A stretch of DNA of 23,288 nucleotides from a virus: positions 1 through 23,288 of the IMG/VR virus record IMGVR_UViG_3300034418_006042. One strand, 5' to 3'. The position numbers and the translations under genes are program-made. Each line of letters starts with the position of its first letter. The stretch's first letter is position 1. Positions 10,185-21,559 of this stretch are shown here, one piece after another. The notes under the pieces are model-generated. The model was not told the DNA's origin. It saw only the letters and a program-made list of their open reading frames with translations, and did not search any database.

Positions 10185-10336
10185 TAGTATCCTCGGTGTG
10201 TTTTCGTGGTCTTGAAGGTGGCTTTCCGGACGGCACCTCGGTGTGGTCGGTATGTGCCTTTCATCAGGCTGTATGATGAGCCTTTCTTCATCCAGTGGAA
10301 GCCCCTAGGTGCTGAAACTTTTTTTGATCTTGTCAT
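10184..10336 (-). CDS. Basic micro-protein, 50 aa, no acidic residues
   Basis: An ATG at 10336 preceded by AAAGGAGCAAT (a good ribosome binding site) opens a 50-residue frame ending in a TAG that overlaps the GTG of the next gene (TAGTG). The protein has 14 Lys/Arg and no Asp or Glu, plus aromatic and Gly/Ser residues (for example GFHWMKKGSSYSLMKGTYRP). No membrane segment. Not recognised. With the 34- and 47-residue neighbours it forms a set of acid-free proteins between the control region and the capsid gene. A nucleic-acid-binding or capsid-inner role is a guess from charge. Confidence 0.65.
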   Translation of the reverse strand: MTRSKKVSAPRGFHWMKKGSSYSLMKGTYRPHRGAVRKATFKTTKTHRGY

Positions 10337-10391
10337 ATTGCTCCTTTATGGTATTTAAGAATCGCTCCCCGGGTATGTCCATGGGGTTCAT
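10305..10391 (-). CDS. Possible 28-aa peptide
   Basis: A short frame (begins MNPMDIPGERF, ends with a Lys-rich amphipathic stretch KEQYDKIKKSF) fills the gap between the 78-residue gene and the 50-residue gene and overlaps the latter by 32 bases. Its composition looks like protein, but the ATG at 10391 lacks a convincing ribosome binding site and lies 12 bases after the preceding stop. It may be translated by coupling, or it may be chance. Weakly supported. Confidence 0.25.
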   Translation of the reverse strand: MNPMDIPGERFLNTIKEQYDKIKKSFST

Positions 10392-10402
10392 CCAGTCGTT
10401 GA

Positions 10403-10639
10403 CTAGTCTTGGTTGCTGTCTGGGACGGCTGTGAATGGGATAGAGTGCCATGGAGCGGTCAGTCCGTGGCTGTTCTTGTACAGTTCCCCGGTGCTGGTGC
10501 TCTGTGCGGCCATGAATTCCCTGGTGCCGTTGCCAAACCTCTTGCGAGTGACCACCCTGGTGGGCCTCCACTCGTGTCCCCGAGCGTAGTATCGCTGGTG
10601 ATTCTGGGGTTGACCCTTGCGGGTCTTGATGCCTGCCAT
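10403..10639 (-). CDS. Small basic protein of unknown function (78 aa)
   Basis: ATG at 10639 behind GGAGGCAGACC (strong ribosome binding site). The 78-residue product begins MAGIKTRKGQPQNHQRYY, is rich in Arg, His and Gln in its first half (HEWRPTRVVTRKRFGNGTREF), and has a Ser/Thr/Pro-rich second half. No membrane segment or known motif. A longer 118-residue frame overlaps it in another register, but that frame begins inside this gene, lacks a ribosome binding site and is low in complexity. This frame is therefore preferred. It belongs to the run of small genes ahead of the capsid operon. Confidence 0.6.
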   Translation of the reverse strand: MAGIKTRKGQPQNHQRYYARGHEWRPTRVVTRKRFGNGTREFMAAQSTSTGELYKNSHGLTAPWHSIPFTAVPDSNQD

Positions 10640-10670
10640 GGTCTGCCTCCGTTATTTCCATGCCCTGCGA

Positions 10671-10958: not shown

Positions 10959-11294
10959 CTATTTACTCCTGGGTCCGCGGAATATCTCACCACGTGCCTG
11001 TAACCTGACGTTGTGCTGGCTCCATGGTTTCAGCGGGTCCTTCCTAGCGATGTTGAGGCTGTCCCACCTGCGACCACGCTGGTGCCACCGGCCGGACCAT
11101 ATGCGTTGGAACTCCGCAAAGGTCAGCGACCACGCTTCCCCACGGTAGCGTGCCTGGCAACGCTTGGTGGTGAATGCCCGCAACTGCTCGCGTGCCTCCT
11201 GGCTGGGACCGTGCTTCCAGCGTTCAGGCCTTGGCCCAGTCTTGCGGAAACGCTGATCTGGCTGTCCGTCCTTGCGTAGGGGTAATTGCTCCAT
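10959..11294 (-). CDS. Small Arg/Trp-rich protein, possibly HNH-like or DNA-binding (111 aa)
   Basis: A 111-residue very basic protein, first gene on the minus strand after the control region. Residues about 50-105 contain a Trp/Arg pattern (EAWSLTFAEFQRIW, WHQRGRRWDSLNIARKDP, PWSQHNVRL). This recalls a family of phage HNH-related or endonuclease-like small proteins in which a W-LT-EF--IW element is followed by RG-R---L--AR-D--GPW---NV-L. The classical HNH catalytic residues are not clearly complete, so nuclease activity is uncertain. The ATG at 11294 has only a weak ribosome binding site (CGGCAAC). CATAAATA, close to a TATAAATA box, lies a few bases upstream. Confidence 0.5.
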   Translation of the reverse strand: MEQLPLRKDGQPDQRFRKTGPRPERWKHGPSQEAREQLRAFTTKRCQARYRGEAWSLTFAEFQRIWSGRWHQRGRRWDSLNIARKDPLKPWSQHNVRLQARGEIFRGPRSK

Positions 11295-11570
11295 GTTGCC
11301 GATATTTATGGTCAGGAACGGACCCCACTTACTTAAAACGGTGGCCGAGAAAAATCGAACTTACTACACAGGTCAGATTACCAAATTTTTTGGGGTGTCC
11401 AACTAGTCACAACGTAGGTCAGAGCCAGACCATGGGTACCCCCATCTTACCACCGTGCCGCACCGTGAGTGAGCGTGATCGCAACGCAGTCGCACGGTCA
11501 GACCACCGTGATCACCCTAGGCACCATATCAGGATGGTAGGGGGGTTGGCACGGTGAACGCACGGTTGAC

Positions 11571-11622
11571 CCAGATTGGAACCAGATTGGAACCAGATTG
11601 GCCCCCAGGTTGGAACCAGGTT
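11571..11622. repeat. Iteron-like array, five copies of an 11-bp unit
   Basis: CCAGATTGGAA occurs at 11571 and 11582, CCAGATTGG at 11593, CCAGGTTGGAA at 11605 and CCAGGTT at 11616. Spacing is 11, 11, 12 and 11 bases, close to one helical turn, so bound proteins would line up on one face of the DNA. Each unit contains the small dyad CCA---TGG. Arrays like this serve as replication initiator or repressor binding sites. No candidate binding protein could be recognised in the window. Confidence 0.75.
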
Positions 11623-11793
11623 ATGGACGGAAATGGTAAAATTCGCACGCTTAACGGTAGGCAGGCTCAATCATTCAGGCAGGCTACAGCCATCGTAAAA
11701 TAAACATCATATGAGCGGAAATTACCACACCAGGTGATGGTATATGGATACTAGACCATCACACCAGCGTGATCACTTTGTAGTAGTAGCACG

Positions 11794-11822
11794 ATTATAG
11801 CACGGAAACCCAGCCAAGTCAA
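11794..11822 (-). promoter_or_regulatory. Sigma70 promoter, minus strand (TTGACT-N17-TATAAT, extended -10)
   Basis: On the minus strand: -35 TTGACT (11817-11822), 17-bp spacer, -10 TATAAT (11794-11799) preceded by TGC, which makes an extended -10 element. Expected start near 11787. It points toward the 111-residue gene and the micro-protein cluster, with a leader of roughly 490 bases crossing the iterons and palindromes. It faces away from the plus-strand promoter at 11849-11877; the two -35 boxes are 26 bases apart. Confidence 0.8.
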
Positions 11823-11848
11823 GCGGTAATCTAAATTGAATCTAGGGG

Positions 11849-11877
11849 TTGACTAGACCGCATTTGAGTGCTATTAT
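11849..11877 (+). promoter_or_regulatory. Sigma70 promoter, plus strand (TTGACT-N17-TATTAT, extended -10)
   Basis: -35 TTGACT at 11849-11854, 17-bp spacer, -10 TATTAT at 11872-11877 with TGC immediately before it. Expected start near 11884, about 35 bases before the ATG at 11919. It should drive the five-gene plus-strand island. Because the -10 box lies inside a frame that could start at GTG 11868, it also fixes the translation start of the first island gene downstream, at 11919. Confidence 0.85.
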
Positions 11878-11918
11878 TTACAAATAGTATAAATACAAAC
11901 AAATTCAATATTGGCACT

Positions 11919-12338
11919 ATGAATCACATTGACGAGACTAGCACATACACACAATTGAGCCGTAGGCTGTTGAAGCATCAGGGTCGCAATTACCAACGAC
12001 TAGCACAACGCAATCTTACAGCACTAGAGCGATCACCATATGGCTTCAGTGAGCGTTTGAAGTTTGCTTTGCTAGATCAATTGAAGCAACGATCTAGATT
12101 GATCACACTCACATTCTTACCAGAACCAGTTTACCAGCAACACAGGAGGGCCGCGGGGCAACGCAACATAGAGCGTCAACAAACACAATCAATCATAGAT
12201 CAGATCAACGCAACAGGCACGGACATCGAGACTATGAAGCGATTGATTGATCAATTGAAGCGTGATGATTTACCAGCATACAAACGATTTATGAAGCGAT
12301 ATGACGAGGGGGCATACAACGATGAATTCAGGAATTAG
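11919..12338 (+). CDS. Island protein 1, basic helical, unknown function (139 aa)
   Basis: A 139-residue soluble protein, rich in Gln, Arg and Leu and probably all-helical (for example QLSRRLLKHQGRNYQRLAQR; later IIDQINATGTDIETMKRLID and RDDLPAYKRFMKRYDEGAY). The ATG at 11919 is preferred over GTG at 11868 because the latter lies upstream of the expected transcription start. A good ribosome binding site is lacking (ATATTGGCACT). First gene behind a near-consensus sigma70 promoter, so probably expressed early. No family recognised; the basic, helical character allows nucleic-acid binding, which is a guess. Confidence 0.7.
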   Translation: MNHIDETSTYTQLSRRLLKHQGRNYQRLAQRNLTALERSPYGFSERLKFALLDQLKQRSRLITLTFLPEPVYQQHRRAAGQRNIERQQTQSIIDQINATGTDIETMKRLIDQLKRDDLPAYKRFMKRYDEGAYNDEFRN

Positions 12339-12382: not shown

Positions 12383-12916
12383 ATGATACGCACAAACACG
12401 GACGCACTACATAGTCTACTACGCACGGGTCATCTAGCCCGTTATTCACAGGTCACACAGGTCAGGGATCACCTAGCACGGGTGACCAAACACATCACGG
12501 ACACGGAGCCCAACACCGCACCGCTAGAGATTAAATTCACTTACAGGCCAACGGGCTACTATGGGTCTACCGCTAGGAGCCGTAGCATCATCTATTCAGC
12601 GGGCCGGGACGACGCTAGGTTGACGGTAAATCTGTACACGCACCAGCGGCACCTAGATAAATGGGGTCAGACGGGGGACGCGGAATTGACCGCATTCATC
12701 AGGAGCATATTCACCAGTATGGTATGGACGATCAGTTACCATCAGGCAGAGCGACGCAGACGAGCGGGGGAGCAGATCAATTCCAAGCGATACGCGGAGT
12801 TACGCAGGGAGCAACAGGACACCATAGTAGATCAATGGCTGTGCCCCTTATACAACTTCATAAGAGGACACGCAAACACAGGAGGCAACTATGACGACGC
12901 AACAACAAACGATTGA
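12383..12916 (+). CDS. Island protein 2, unknown function (177 aa)
   Basis: A 177-residue protein starting ATG at 12383 behind AGAGGTAAAACCAT. The N-terminal half is rich in Thr, His and Arg, with a Tyr/Arg/Ser stretch (YRPTGYYGSTARSRSIIY, about residues 55-72). The middle contains an aromatic helix (FIRSIFTSMVWTISYHQAERRRRAGEQ, split here as about residues 104-130), followed by charged helix and a Gly/Asn-rich end. The Ser-Met-Val-Trp-Thr-Ile part is mildly hydrophobic but too short and interrupted for a confident membrane span. Not recognised. Its last 26 bases overlap the next gene. Confidence 0.7.
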   Translation: MIRTNTDALHSLLRTGHLARYSQVTQVRDHLARVTKHITDTEPNTAPLEIKFTYRPTGYYGSTARSRSIIYSAGRDDARLTVNLYTHQRHLDKWGQTGDAELTAFIRSIFTSMVWTISYHQAERRRRAGEQINSKRYAELRREQQDTIVDQWLCPLYNFIRGHANTGGNYDDATTND

Positions 12917-13295
12917 ACACAAGCACCAGGACGGTAGATGGGTACGGGAACACATTGACCGTGATGGGGGCATCACTTACACCAGCAACTTTGATCACGA
13001 GGCTATGCTACGGGATGATCGTCTATGGCAGATACACGGCTGTGATGACATCAAGCATTACGGTAATCTAGATGGCTACTACACTAAATTCACAGAACTA
13101 CACAGGTCAGAGGTCATCTATCTTTACCAGCAATGGAGGGACTATGTACAGGAAGGACACACTATGGCCAGTTTTGAACAATGGTTGGAATGGGAGATCA
13201 ACGATGGTGATGACCTTTATGAACAGCGGGATCTAGCACAAGACACGCTGTATGACGAAATCACGGAGTGTTTAGAACGGGAAGGTTTCAATTGA
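12891..13295 (+). CDS. Island protein 3, strongly acidic, unknown function (134 aa)
   Basis: A 134-residue soluble protein with about 30 Asp/Glu against 12 Lys/Arg, and many Trp, Tyr and His (for example YLYQQWRDYVQEG, FEQWLEWEINDGDDLYEQRD). ATG at 12891 within the end of gene 2, behind the perfect ribosome binding site ACAGGAGGCAACT, a leader repeated exactly before island gene 4. High negative charge, small size and an early promoter are traits of phage proteins that mimic DNA to block host restriction or other defences, such as T7 Ocr, but there is no sequence resemblance. The stop codon TGA forms part of the -35 box of the next promoter. Confidence 0.75.
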   Translation: MTTQQQTIEHKHQDGRWVREHIDRDGGITYTSNFDHEAMLRDDRLWQIHGCDDIKHYGNLDGYYTKFTELHRSEVIYLYQQWRDYVQEGHTMASFEQWLEWEINDGDDLYEQRDLAQDTLYDEITECLEREGFN

Positions 13296-13320
13296 CACAC
13301 CAGTTTGAATGTGCTACAAT
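13292..13320 (+). promoter_or_regulatory. Sigma70 promoter inside the island (TTGACA-N17-TACAAT, extended -10)
   Basis: -35 TTGACA at 13292-13297 overlaps the TGA stop of island gene 3. A 17-bp spacer follows, then -10 TACAAT at 13315-13320 preceded by TGC. Expected start near 13327, just ahead of the ribosome binding site of the 77-residue gene. The three island-associated promoters (11794, 11849, 13292) share the 17-bp spacing and the TGC before the -10 box. Confidence 0.82.
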
Positions 13321-13338
13321 CAACAACAGGAGGCAACT

Positions 13339-13572
13339 ATGATAACAACGACTATGACGCGTGATCAATTCAACGCACTAACACAACAGGAACTGATAGC
13401 CAAGGGCACTCACTATGAACGCATAGACCTTACGGACGAGGTTGGGTGTCTATGGGCCAGCATCACACCTAAATTACAGGGCAGGGAGATGTATTGGACG
13501 GTCAGATGGGCCAACGAGCGACCCGAGGTGCTGTCTATAGAAGAGGCCATCACTAGGGGTGAGATCGTATGA
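13339..13572 (+). CDS. Island protein 4, unknown function (77 aa)
   Basis: ATG at 13339 follows ACAGGAGGCAACT, identical over 17 bases (through the start) to the leader of island gene 3. A start at 13309 would lie upstream of the expected mRNA start and is rejected. The 77-residue product has a Thr-rich start, a short beta-rich core (EVGCLWASITPKLQGREMYW) and an acidic C-terminus. Its TGA overlaps the ATG of the next gene (ATGA). Not recognised. Confidence 0.72.
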   Translation: MITTTMTRDQFNALTQQELIAKGTHYERIDLTDEVGCLWASITPKLQGREMYWTVRWANERPEVLSIEEAITRGEIV

Positions 13573-13886
13573 CGGAACCGCTCACGGCAGAACAGAAAAC
13601 ACTAGAGATACTACGGGGCAATTACCCTTACACATTCAAGACCTTACCGCTAGAGGTCTACACGGAGATCTGTGAGGGATCAGAGAGCACCGCGGAACTG
13701 CTACGCGATATGCTCCAACAGAGCGAGGGCCGTCGTGATTTCTGTCAAGCGTGGGTTGAATATATGAGCGGGTTTGATGGTGATTGTAGTGAGGTTGAGC
13801 GGCAACACAACAACTATGAATGGGCTATGGAACTATGGCAGGAAGTGACGGACACCGTGTATTATCTAAATAACCCGCAGGGTTGA
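13569..13886 (+). CDS. Island protein 5, acidic, unknown function (105 aa)
   Basis: A 105-residue acidic helical protein (about 20 Asp/Glu against 7 Lys/Arg) with Trp/Tyr-rich segments (WVEYMSGFDGDCSEVERQ, YEWAMELWQEVTDTVYYL). Starts at the ATGA overlap with island gene 4, so translation is coupled. Last gene of the island; the end of the frame contains the small hairpin AACCC-GCA-GGGTT across the stop codon. No family recognised. As with gene 3, the charge suggests an inhibitor or DNA-mimic type role, which is only inference. Confidence 0.72.
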   Translation: MTEPLTAEQKTLEILRGNYPYTFKTLPLEVYTEICEGSESTAELLRDMLQQSEGRRDFCQAWVEYMSGFDGDCSEVERQHNNYEWAMELWQEVTDTVYYLNNPQG

Positions 13887-14005
13887 TCTCTACCAAAAAC
13901 ACCAAAAATACCAAAATTTTTTCCAACAAAGGTCAGACATAGGTCAGATGATTACATAGGTCAGACCTAATTTTTTACATAGGTCAGATGATTACATAGG
14001 TCAGA
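13887..14005. repeat. Convergent intergenic repeats: ACCAAAAA x3 and AGGTCAGA x5
   Basis: This lies between the plus-strand island and the minus-strand oxygenase gene, with its last bases inside the end of the latter. ACCAAAAA recurs every 9 bases at 13892, 13901 and 13910, running into TTTTTT. AGGTCAGA occurs at 13930, 13941, 13958, 13981 and 13998. Within this a 29-bp segment (starting ACATAGGTCAGATGATTAC) is directly repeated at 13937-13965 and 13977-14005. The copy at 13958 is part of AGGTC-A-GACCT, a small palindrome. No clear intrinsic terminator is visible. Confidence 0.8.
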
Positions 14006-14573
14006 TGAACCATACGACCAACACGTATCTCTCACCGTCAGTGACCGGTCGTACCTCATGTGGGAAACAGAAGTTGCTGGGAAACACGATGGCATCTCCA
14101 GTGCCTTGGGCAGGACTCGTGTATTGGCCCTGCCAGAAAGACAACTCTCCACCCTCGTAGTCAGTATTTAAAAGTATGCTGGTGCTCAATATACGCGGTG
14201 CTCCACCGTATGAGTCCACGTGCTCCTCGAACTTGTGTCCATTGCCGTACCTTATCAGGCTCACACCCGTGTGTTCGGTGGCCTTGTGTAGGTATGGATA
14301 GTGCTCCAGGATGTGTAGCAGTCCCAACTCTATGCGATCCCAACATGGTCCCCTGTCTGGTCCCAGCATGGTGAATTCACACTGCCTGGATTTGGTCACA
14401 CGCTCCGTTGTGTTGTCAACCGCACTCTTGGCCACTTCCCAACCCTCCCAGGCCGTGTCGGCCTCGGGTTCACTCTTGCTCCATTCTATGATCTGTTGGC
14501 AGGTGTCAAAGTTCAGCAGGTTCTGGAACGTTATGATGTAGTCTCGCAGGTCCGTGCTGTCTGCGATACGCAC
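14001..14573 (-). CDS. 2-oxoglutarate/Fe(II)-dependent oxygenase, prolyl-hydroxylase-like (190 aa)
   Basis: A 190-residue protein with the full 2OG-Fe(II) signature. The metal ligands His118 and Asp120 lie in EEHVDSYGG, distal His172 in FPHEV, and Arg182 ten residues later binds 2-oxoglutarate. Hydrophobic strands of the jelly roll are visible around residues 103-108, 128-135, 143-147, 161-165 and 183-189. It belongs to the small P4H-like oxygenases carried by many aquatic phages, with an unknown substrate, often thought to be a protein side chain. The start is GTG in a TAGTG overlap with the scaffold gene, so it is co-expressed with virion proteins, which favours a virion or late target. The N-terminal 100 residues are less typical. 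Confidence 0.85.
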   Translation of the reverse strand: MRIADSTDLRDYIITFQNLLNFDTCQQIIEWSKSEPEADTAWEGWEVAKSAVDNTTERVTKSRQCEFTMLGPDRGPCWDRIELGLLHILEHYPYLHKATEHTGVSLIRYGNGHKFEEHVDSYGGAPRILSTSILLNTDYEGGELSFWQGQYTSPAQGTGDAIVFPSNFCFPHEVRPVTDGERYVLVVWFI

Positions 14574-17428: not shown

Positions 17429-17793
17429 TAGTAGCCTCCTCCTAACAGTCTCAACACGTTCCTTGCCGCTGTGGCAACTGTCGTGGTTGGTTGTAATAGA
17501 CTCTGTCTTGTTCCTAGGTCATCGGCTTCACCTGAAACTCCAAGTGCTGTCCTCCTAGTGATCAACACACCCCTTCCGGCCTGTGAAGCGGCCTTCCTTT
17601 TTCCAACTCCCCTCGCTGGTGCGGGTGGTGGTGTTGGACTTGGTGGTGGTGGTGGAGGTGGTGGTGGTGGGGGTGGTGGGGGTGGTGGGGGTGATGAACA
17701 CATCATCATGGCCACTGGACCCTTGTACTCCGAACTCACTTCCTCTATGATATTGAAATCTTTGTCCCAAACGATCTTTGAATATATTTTCAT
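17428..17793 (-). CDS. Polyproline-run protein (121 aa)
   Basis: A 121-residue protein. The first 34 residues (MKIYSKIVWDKDFNIIEEVS onward to CSS) form a compact beta-like start seen in small proteins near phage terminase genes. Residues 35-51 are 17 consecutive prolines, then a Pro/Ala linker, a basic stretch (GVGKRKAASQAGRG) and a short C-terminal helix. A run this long would stall ribosomes without EF-P and may act as a stiff rod between two parts. ATG at 17793 with AAAAGGAG upstream; TAATG overlap at its end. The opposite strand shows a Gly-run frame here, which is only a shadow. Confidence 0.7.
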   Translation of the reverse strand: MKIYSKIVWDKDFNIIEEVSSEYKGPVAMMMCSSPPPPPPPPPPPPPPPPPSPTPPPAPARGVGKRKAASQAGRGVLITRRTALGVSGEADDLGTRQSLLQPTTTVATAARNVLRLLGGGY

Positions 17794-21164: not shown

Positions 21165-21317
21165 ATGAAAGGAGAAATACAAGGACTGAACGAAGTGAAG
21201 GACTTGGAGATGAGCAAGGCTCATCTACTCACTGCTGACGCAGTTCGTAAAGACTACGTCTTCCTCTTGACATCAAATGTGCGATCATGTATAATCAACG
21301 ATGAAGGAGTAATATGA
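21165..21317 (+). CDS. Possible 50-aa protein leading the second island
   Basis: ATG at 21165 with AAGGA six bases upstream; the product starts MKGEIQGLNEVKDLEMSKAH and ends with a beta-like stretch (DYVFLLTSNVRSCIIND). Its TGA overlaps the ATG of the next gene (ATATGA), a coupling pattern used throughout this phage. Against it: a perfect sigma70 promoter lies inside, so most transcripts of the next gene would not include this frame. The stretch also contains a perfect 8-bp hairpin (AGATGAGC-AAG-GCTCATCT, 21208-21226) that may reflect RNA structure instead. An in-frame ATG at 21159 would have too close a ribosome binding site. Confidence 0.38.
   Translation: MKGEIQGLNEVKDLEMSKAHLLTADAVRKDYVFLLTSNVRSCIINDEGVI
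21267..21295 (+). promoter_or_regulatory. Perfect-consensus sigma70 promoter (TTGACA-N17-TATAAT)
   Basis: -35 TTGACA at 21267-21272, exactly 17 bases, -10 TATAAT at 21290-21295: both hexamers match the bacterial consensus fully. Expected start near 21302, just before AAGGAGTAATATG of the 81-residue gene. A promoter this strong on the plus strand, opposite to the late genes on both sides, points to expression by host RNA polymerase right after infection and to a bacterial host with a standard housekeeping sigma factor. Confidence 0.92.
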
Positions 21318-21559
21318 GGAACAAATTCAACAAATATAGAAGAAACAAAGCCAAGAGGTCTGACGTGCCCAAGCACACCTGTAAGGACACCTGCCAGATG
21401 GTGCTGTTGGAGAGGCCCTACAATCAACTCAACAAGTGGGACCTACGATGTCGAGTCAGCAACAGGCACTACAAGTGGTTGAGCAAACAAGAGGCCAGCC
21501 ACATATGGGACATGGTGCCCCACAGGACCATGATGTCCAGAAAAAAAGTGGCACCATAG
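21314..21559 (+). CDS. Basic Cys/His-containing protein, probably 5' part of a split gene (81 aa)
   Basis: ATG at 21314 behind AAGGAGTAAT, directly downstream of the consensus promoter. The start is very basic (MRNKFNKYRRNKAKRS), followed by a Cys-x3-Cys pair (HTCKDTCQM) and a third Cys (WDLRCRV), and Trp-rich helices (HYKWLSKQEASHIWDMV). The frame ends TAG three codons after a run of seven A (21541-21547). Just there the +1 frame is open for a further 95 codons and ends neatly at the neighbouring convergent gene. A 173-residue product would result if one A were absent or if the ribosome skipped one base. Zinc binding is possible from the Cys/His content. Function unknown. Confidence 0.7.
   Translation: MRNKFNKYRRNKAKRSDVPKHTCKDTCQMVLLERPYNQLNKWDLRCRVSNRHYKWLSKQEASHIWDMVPHRTMMSRKKVAP

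Follow-up and report, generated by a model that had tools for sequence, protein, structure and literature searches.

Genome Context of the Gene-Free Region

The window, which is the entire 23,288-bp IMG/VR virus record analysed here, is a near-complete podovirus contig from an uncultured tailed phage that is probably marine. It contains virion, packaging and small late genes together with small reversed clusters. The minus strand encodes TerL, portal, a scaffold-like protein, a 2OG-Fe(II) oxygenase, the major capsid protein (MCP), tail tubes and further virion-type proteins, and about 8 kb that hold virion genes in relatives are missing. The relatives that close as circles measure ~31 kb. Circular closure was found in two of them, G001 and G005: both ends of G001 (30.8 kb) fall within a single proline-rich gene, the frame of which continues across the junction, and the two ends of the G005 contig share a repeat of ~100 bp. 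The window also has a long proline run (17624-17693), which belongs to the product of the gene immediately downstream of TerL, and the G001 assembly breaks at the same place. G001 and G005 contain virion, packaging and small late genes and the reversed module described below. The relatives gave no match to DNA polymerase A or DnaB, and a search for a phage RNA polymerase, run without a positive control, was negative. The group appears to consist of podoviruses with ~31-kb genomes and without RNA and DNA polymerases of their own.

Judged by MCP or tail tube, the closest isolates are pelagiphages (HTVC010P type, Hodr), Methylophilales phage MEP301, Yersinia YeP phages and 31-32-kb Vibrio phages, with 27-37% amino-acid identity, and membership in any known family is not proven. 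No host was found, as the MCP has no relative in prokaryote genomes, and the literature searched held no description of the phage group, only mechanisms for comparison. Contig L093/G007, which entered the comparison via a 111-aa protein, was set aside as an unrelated phage type. Several small genes were observed in passing. A 78-aa frame in the window (10403-10639, minus strand) is probably a real small late gene, rather than the overlapping 118-aa frame (10305-10661), and similar frames occur in L006 and G005. The small late genes of G001 include an S-adenosylmethionine decarboxylase-like protein (L096:7168-7629, plus strand; Pfam 1.2e-10), and those of G006 a protein that starts with the SPPYNIG motif typical of DNA methyltransferases (L104:1271-2047, minus strand).

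Positions 11295-11918 are gene-free as originally predicted, and the short ORFs within them show no conservation as a set. The region had been placed between the scaffold and capsid genes, which requires correction: the 2OG-Fe(II) oxygenase gene, a five-gene plus-strand module and several small minus-strand genes also lie between the scaffold-like and capsid genes. Its location, which had been called unexpected, is so when compared with known isolates but is normal for the group. In all relatives whose contigs cover this place, a segment of ~2-4.5 kb is coded on the opposite strand, bounded by the 2OG gene on one side and by the small genes ahead of the capsid gene on the other. Early-type genes are thus found on one side of the divergent promoters and virion genes on the other. 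The coordinates of the features are collected in Table 1.

Table 1. Features in and around the gene-free region, in window coordinates.
Feature	Position	Strand	Remarks
First late gene	10959-11294	-	111 aa, without assigned function
Untranslated late leader	11294-11787	-	predicted transcript from P_late to first late gene; ~490 nt to ATG at 11294
E1, GTAAGTTCGATTTTTCTCGGCCACCGTTTTAAGTAA	11329-11364	-	single match per genome where found, upstream of first late gene
Two AGGTCAGA copies	11370-11423	+	at 11370 and 11416; related repeats at 13926-14008
HP4, CACGGTGGTCTGACCGTG	11492-11509	-	mutually exclusive with outer stem of HP3
HP3, nested stems ACCGT/ACGGT, ACTCT/AGAGT (ACCC/GGGT in window), ACCA/TGGT	11502-11555	-	weak
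11-bp repeat array, CCAGATTGGAA	11571-11622		tandem repeat, ~4.4 copies
90-nt block identical in window and L006	11646-11735	-	holds E2; pairwise alignment, mid-leader, flanks much poorer
E2 core, AGCCTGCCTGAAT	11673-11685	-	one leader copy per close relative
HP1, start-proximal hairpin	11723-11773	-	includes GTGATGGT/ACCATCAC and one GTGATCAC; loop TATCCATA kept, window vs L006
Late promoter P_late, TTGACT-17-TGCTATAAT (TATAAT)	11794-11822	-	11/12, extended -10
Early promoter P_early, TTGACT-17-TGCTATTAT (TATTAT)	11849-11877	+	10/12, extended -10
Reversed early module P1-P5	11919-13886	+	five proteins: 11919-12338, 12383-12916, 12891-13295, 13309-13572, 13569-13886
Internal early promoter, TTGACA-17-TACAAT	13292-13320	+	extended -10, upstream of P4

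The five proteins of the reversed module in the window, P1-P5, gave no informative Pfam or PHROG hit, and the gene content of the module varies among relatives. The P1 family is common to eight contigs and is usually encoded by the first early gene; its predicted structure has a mean pLDDT of 48 and no recognisable fold. The module of G001 encodes a protein that matches the clamp loader of DNA polymerase (PHROG E 3.8e-36; Pfam AAA 1e-19), and that of L086 an AAA+ ATPase. These two proteins support the assignment of the reversed module as early and replication-related. Both ATPases stand alone (L014:4650-5393, minus strand, of the clamp-loader type in L014/G001, and L086:5549-6187, minus strand, of the AAA+ type), and no DNA polymerase was found in these phages.

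Divergent Promoters

The original prediction described two back-to-back sigma70 promoters with 17-bp spacers and extended -10 boxes. Both are present and go well beyond chance, with two such promoters in the 11295-11918 region in 0/1000 dinucleotide shuffles. The whole window holds three extended -10 promoters that match at least 10 of 12 positions with a 17-bp spacer, namely P_late, P_early and the internal promoter at +13292, which has similar counterparts in L006, L012, L025, L055 and L036/L091. A slightly wider scan of the window adds a perfect 12/12 promoter at +21267, which precedes a small plus-strand gene (21314-21559) in a second reversed cluster; G006 has the same promoter with a similar gene.

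Comparison with relatives revealed that the divergent pair is kept at similar spacing. A late-strand promoter with 10-12 of 12 matches and an adjoining early-strand promoter is found at the matching place in L006, L091, L055, L012, L027, L025 and L026, and the window and relatives have in common the sequence TTCCGTGCTATAATCrTrCTA, which covers the end of the spacer and the start region. A strong sigma70 late promoter at the matching place is absent from G001, G005 and L065. Relative to the window, L006 features an insertion of ~116 bp (L006:7210-7325) between P_late and HP1. P_late probably feeds most of the ~27-28 kb of late genes in the circular genome, because the late strand of the window has no other strong promoter; L006 and G006 likewise have a single strong promoter on that strand.

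Predicted Untranslated Leader and Its Conserved Elements

A minus-strand leader of roughly 490 bases had been proposed as a long regulatory RNA. For the predicted transcript this length and the untranslated state are confirmed, and the leader is without a conserved ORF and untranslated in all close relatives. A regulatory RNA is plausible given the conserved elements and some compensatory changes, although its folding energies depart only mildly from those expected. Between the -10 box and E1 there are 429 nt in the window and 521-641 nt in relatives (eight contigs, ~430-640 nt). The leader is not universal, because L065 and L110 keep E1 and are missing the long leader. A search of the leader's minus strand for intrinsic terminators gave none at the threshold used.

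The most conserved parts of the leader are E1 and E2, new group-specific non-coding elements that were not visible to the original prediction. Both are conserved in relatives whose remaining non-coding DNA is barely alignable. E1 is always located on the late strand, with the early promoters on one side and the first late gene on the other, is kept even at 62% MCP identity and has an A-tract 20-30 nt upstream in most genomes that carry it. A degenerate E1 pattern matched 15 stretches among 2.9 million viral contigs, every one of them in this phage group, and gave no match in 84,980 prokaryote genomes. Matches to E2 that are weaker were found in L089 and L034. Along the leader, E2, the repeat arrays and HP3 are ordered in position.

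Other assignments of these elements were considered. E1 as a promoter for a phage polymerase was rejected in view of its single match per genome and the negative search for an RNA polymerase (which had no positive control), and E1 as an attachment (attP) or tRNA-like site in view of the absence of matches in the 84,980 genomes. The E1 frame is open to TAA in most relatives, as MCVTSIF[LH]DHLLS*; a conserved short peptide is unlikely, since the window has no ATG, GTG or TTG start and L034 breaks the frame. E2 may hold a mini-ORF (window 11640-11690, minus strand, and relatives) that consists of ATG ATT/ATA, 4-5 codons and TAA, with the candidate peptides MIEPAYR* (window), MIANSA, MIANLA, MIDSLT, MITMVA and MIQPTA. 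Long-range pairing of E2 (GCUUAAA) with the end of E1 (UUUAAGU) is broken in the window and L006 and was given no weight. Around the A-tract there is a hairpin that is good in L025, partial in others and lost in the window, and local folding near E1 is not unusual. TAAATA boxes, tried as T4-type late promoters, show no consistent excess over shuffles.

RNA structure in the leader is treated as likely but unproven, because the folding scores are modest, the compensatory pairs are few and Rfam gave no match. Compared with shuffles, whole-leader folding has z values of -1.85 (window), -2.81 (L006) and -0.78 (L091), so that it is slightly more stable in the window and L006 and not in L091. In HP1, two pairs are changed on both sides between the window and L006. 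HP3 features one double-changed pair in 2/8 sequences, which is weak evidence, and the shuffle control reached it in 21/500 cases.

Repeats and Palindromes

The 11-bp array described as iterons consists of CCAG(A/G)TTGG at 11571, 11582, 11593 and 11605, with spacings of 11, 11 and 12. Duplicated 9-mers in the region number 18 against 1.0 expected, which was reached in 0/1000 shuffles. Tandem arrays with a 10-11-bp period are present in the leaders of all nine close contigs and once in L089; L065 has no such array. The iterons are therefore conserved in relatives as arrays, but not as sequence: the units differ between phages (CTGGTTCCAAT, GATCACCCTG, GATCACGGTA, TGGCTCACGG) and the copy number varies even in near-identical contigs, with 7.1 in L025 and 4.1 in L026. 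An array that persists while its unit turns over fits either protein-binding arrays or slippage.

The two copies of GTGATCAC, at 11508 and 11769 (2 against 0.01 expected), correspond to a reported palindromic 9-mer; the copies are real, but the 9-mer CGTGATCAC is not itself palindromic and only its inner 8-mer is. Palindromes of 6-8 bp in general are not enriched in the region relative to shuffles. The pair GTGATGGT/ACCATCAC, reported by the same prediction, is present as an inverted repeat. At the far end of the reversed module, where the early module and the 2OG gene converge, there are five AGGTCAG copies (13930, 13941, 13958, 13981 and 13998), partly in 17-bp tandem repeats at 13926-14008. 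At the place of these repeats L006 has a different hexamer repeat.

Proposed Control of Late Transcription and Alternative Explanations

The proposal that the region is an early control locus is well supported by divergent promoters that are conserved and separate the reversed module from the late genes, and by the clamp loader that the module encodes in a relative. Judged from these features, a role in early/late control is very probable. P_late is near consensus and would fire at once upon infection, which would mean that the gate on late expression lies further downstream or consists of operators within the leader. The protein that binds the array and/or E1-E2 would be an early product, with the P1 family as the strongest candidate, and once bound it would either block or release host polymerase, like lambda Q at PR' or Xp10 P7. 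In phages that depend on host polymerase, late genes are commonly gated after initiation. Such gating is carried out by lambda/21 Q (PMC6606751) and by Xp10 P7 (PMC6624301). As no intrinsic terminator was found in the leader, a target for antitermination is not visible and repression is as possible as antitermination; the sequence cannot decide which of the two would form the gate. A gating mechanism in the leader has about an even chance of being correct, and we give similarly balanced credence to the combined reading, in which the region would be the master early/late transcription control of the podovirus group with late transcription gated in the leader.

The region had also been regarded as perhaps an origin, which is unproven: the GC skew has no turning point and follows the coding strand in the window, G001, G005 and G002, and no initiator gene was found. 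Two kinds of origin can be envisaged. In an RNA-primed origin the transcript from the minus-strand promoter would act as a preprimer: it would form an R-loop and, close to the A-tract and E1, prime host DNA polymerase, as ColE1 RNA II does. Such an origin would suit closed genomes in which no initiator or polymerase gene was found, as well as a transcript of 430-640 nt, the clamp loader in the G001 module and the conserved A-tract just before E1, the most conserved element. RNA-based origins with ~400-500-bp non-coding regions exist in mycobacterial prophages (PMC7157519), and this precedent, together with the A-tract before E1, keeps the idea in play. It is nevertheless rather unlikely, given that the skew does not turn, that E1 persists in L065 without the long leader, that the window has no overlapping antisense promoter and that there is no Rfam match at all, and hence no known ColE1-type family. 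In an iteron origin an early protein would bind the 10-11-bp arrays, open the AT-rich stretch at the early promoter and recruit the host replisome. The presence of helical-phase arrays in every close relative and of a replication-type gene in the reversed module of G001 is consistent with this, but the array unit differs between phages, the copy number differs between L025 and L026, L065 has no such array, the region has no perfect DnaA box, the skew lacks a turn, and the nearest thing to an initiator gene is the clamp loader, in G001 alone. These observations make an iteron origin quite improbable.

Two further explanations give the region a more modest role. It could be an ordinary intergenic region with strong promoters, in which the repeats are functionless slippage products and selection acts on the promoters alone. 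Drifting array units and copy numbers and the lack of enrichment of general palindromes would be expected in that case; the 90 identical mid-leader bases in the window and L006, and the conservation of E1 and E2 where other non-coding DNA is barely alignable, would not, which renders this explanation very improbable. Alternatively, E1 and its surroundings could be a packaging (pac/cos) or other DNA-processing site next to ordinary promoters. E1 is single-copy, strongly conserved and kept where the leader is absent, as such a site might be, but it lies ~8 kb from the terminase genes and the contig ends give no pointer to it, so that a packaging site is highly unlikely.

Transcription control with a gate in the leader is the preferred reading. 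If the region is the sole master control, and perhaps also the origin, it shows how a ~31-kb phage without a recognised polymerase, primase, helicase or initiator runs on host machinery. It is also conceivable, although quite doubtful, that the leader is a bifunctional phage RNA that would both prime replication via an R-loop at the A-tract and E1 and control the entry of host polymerase into the late operon. In that case one 600-bp region would run the cycle of a tailed phage of 31 kb that has no recognised enzymes for replication or transcription.

Comparison with Known Systems

The HTVC010P-type pelagiphages, Hodr, MEP301 and the 30-32-kb Vibrio phages have virion genes related to those of the window at ~27-37% amino-acid identity. 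Unlike the group studied here, HTVC010P, MEP301, YeP5 and Vibrio phage 448O51-1 have no reversed module between scaffold and capsid. The RNA origins of ColE1 and of the mycobacterial prophages Alma and LadyBird likewise feature an untranslated transcript of several hundred nt and no initiator gene found. The leader differs from ColE1-type origins in that its transcript runs into the late operon, the window has no promoter for an antisense regulator and there is no Rfam match.

The put RNA of HK022 is ~70 nt long and forms two stem-loops on early transcripts (PMC9378689). HK022 and the phage studied here both have a hairpin (a predicted one in the latter) right after the promoter and an apparent reliance on host polymerase, whereas here there is one predicted start-proximal hairpin on the late transcript together with distant elements, and no Rfam match. 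As with P7 of Xp10, an early protein is expected to redirect host polymerase into the late genes; the difference is that no P7 relative and no terminator before the late genes were found.

A further comparison is with late control by lambda Q at PR'. The early module (P1-P5 and the modules of relatives) gave no family hit to a Q-type or other antiterminator protein, and the leader differs from lambda in that no terminator was found on its minus strand, at the threshold used, between the late promoter and the first late gene. The spacer end TTCCGTG is conserved, with no 6-bp direct repeat there by eye and no clear Q-binding repeat. The late leader of lambda is 2-3 times shorter than the leader of this phage. 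What the two systems share is a strong host promoter, an untranslated leader, one late operon and a small early protein that is expected to act as activator.
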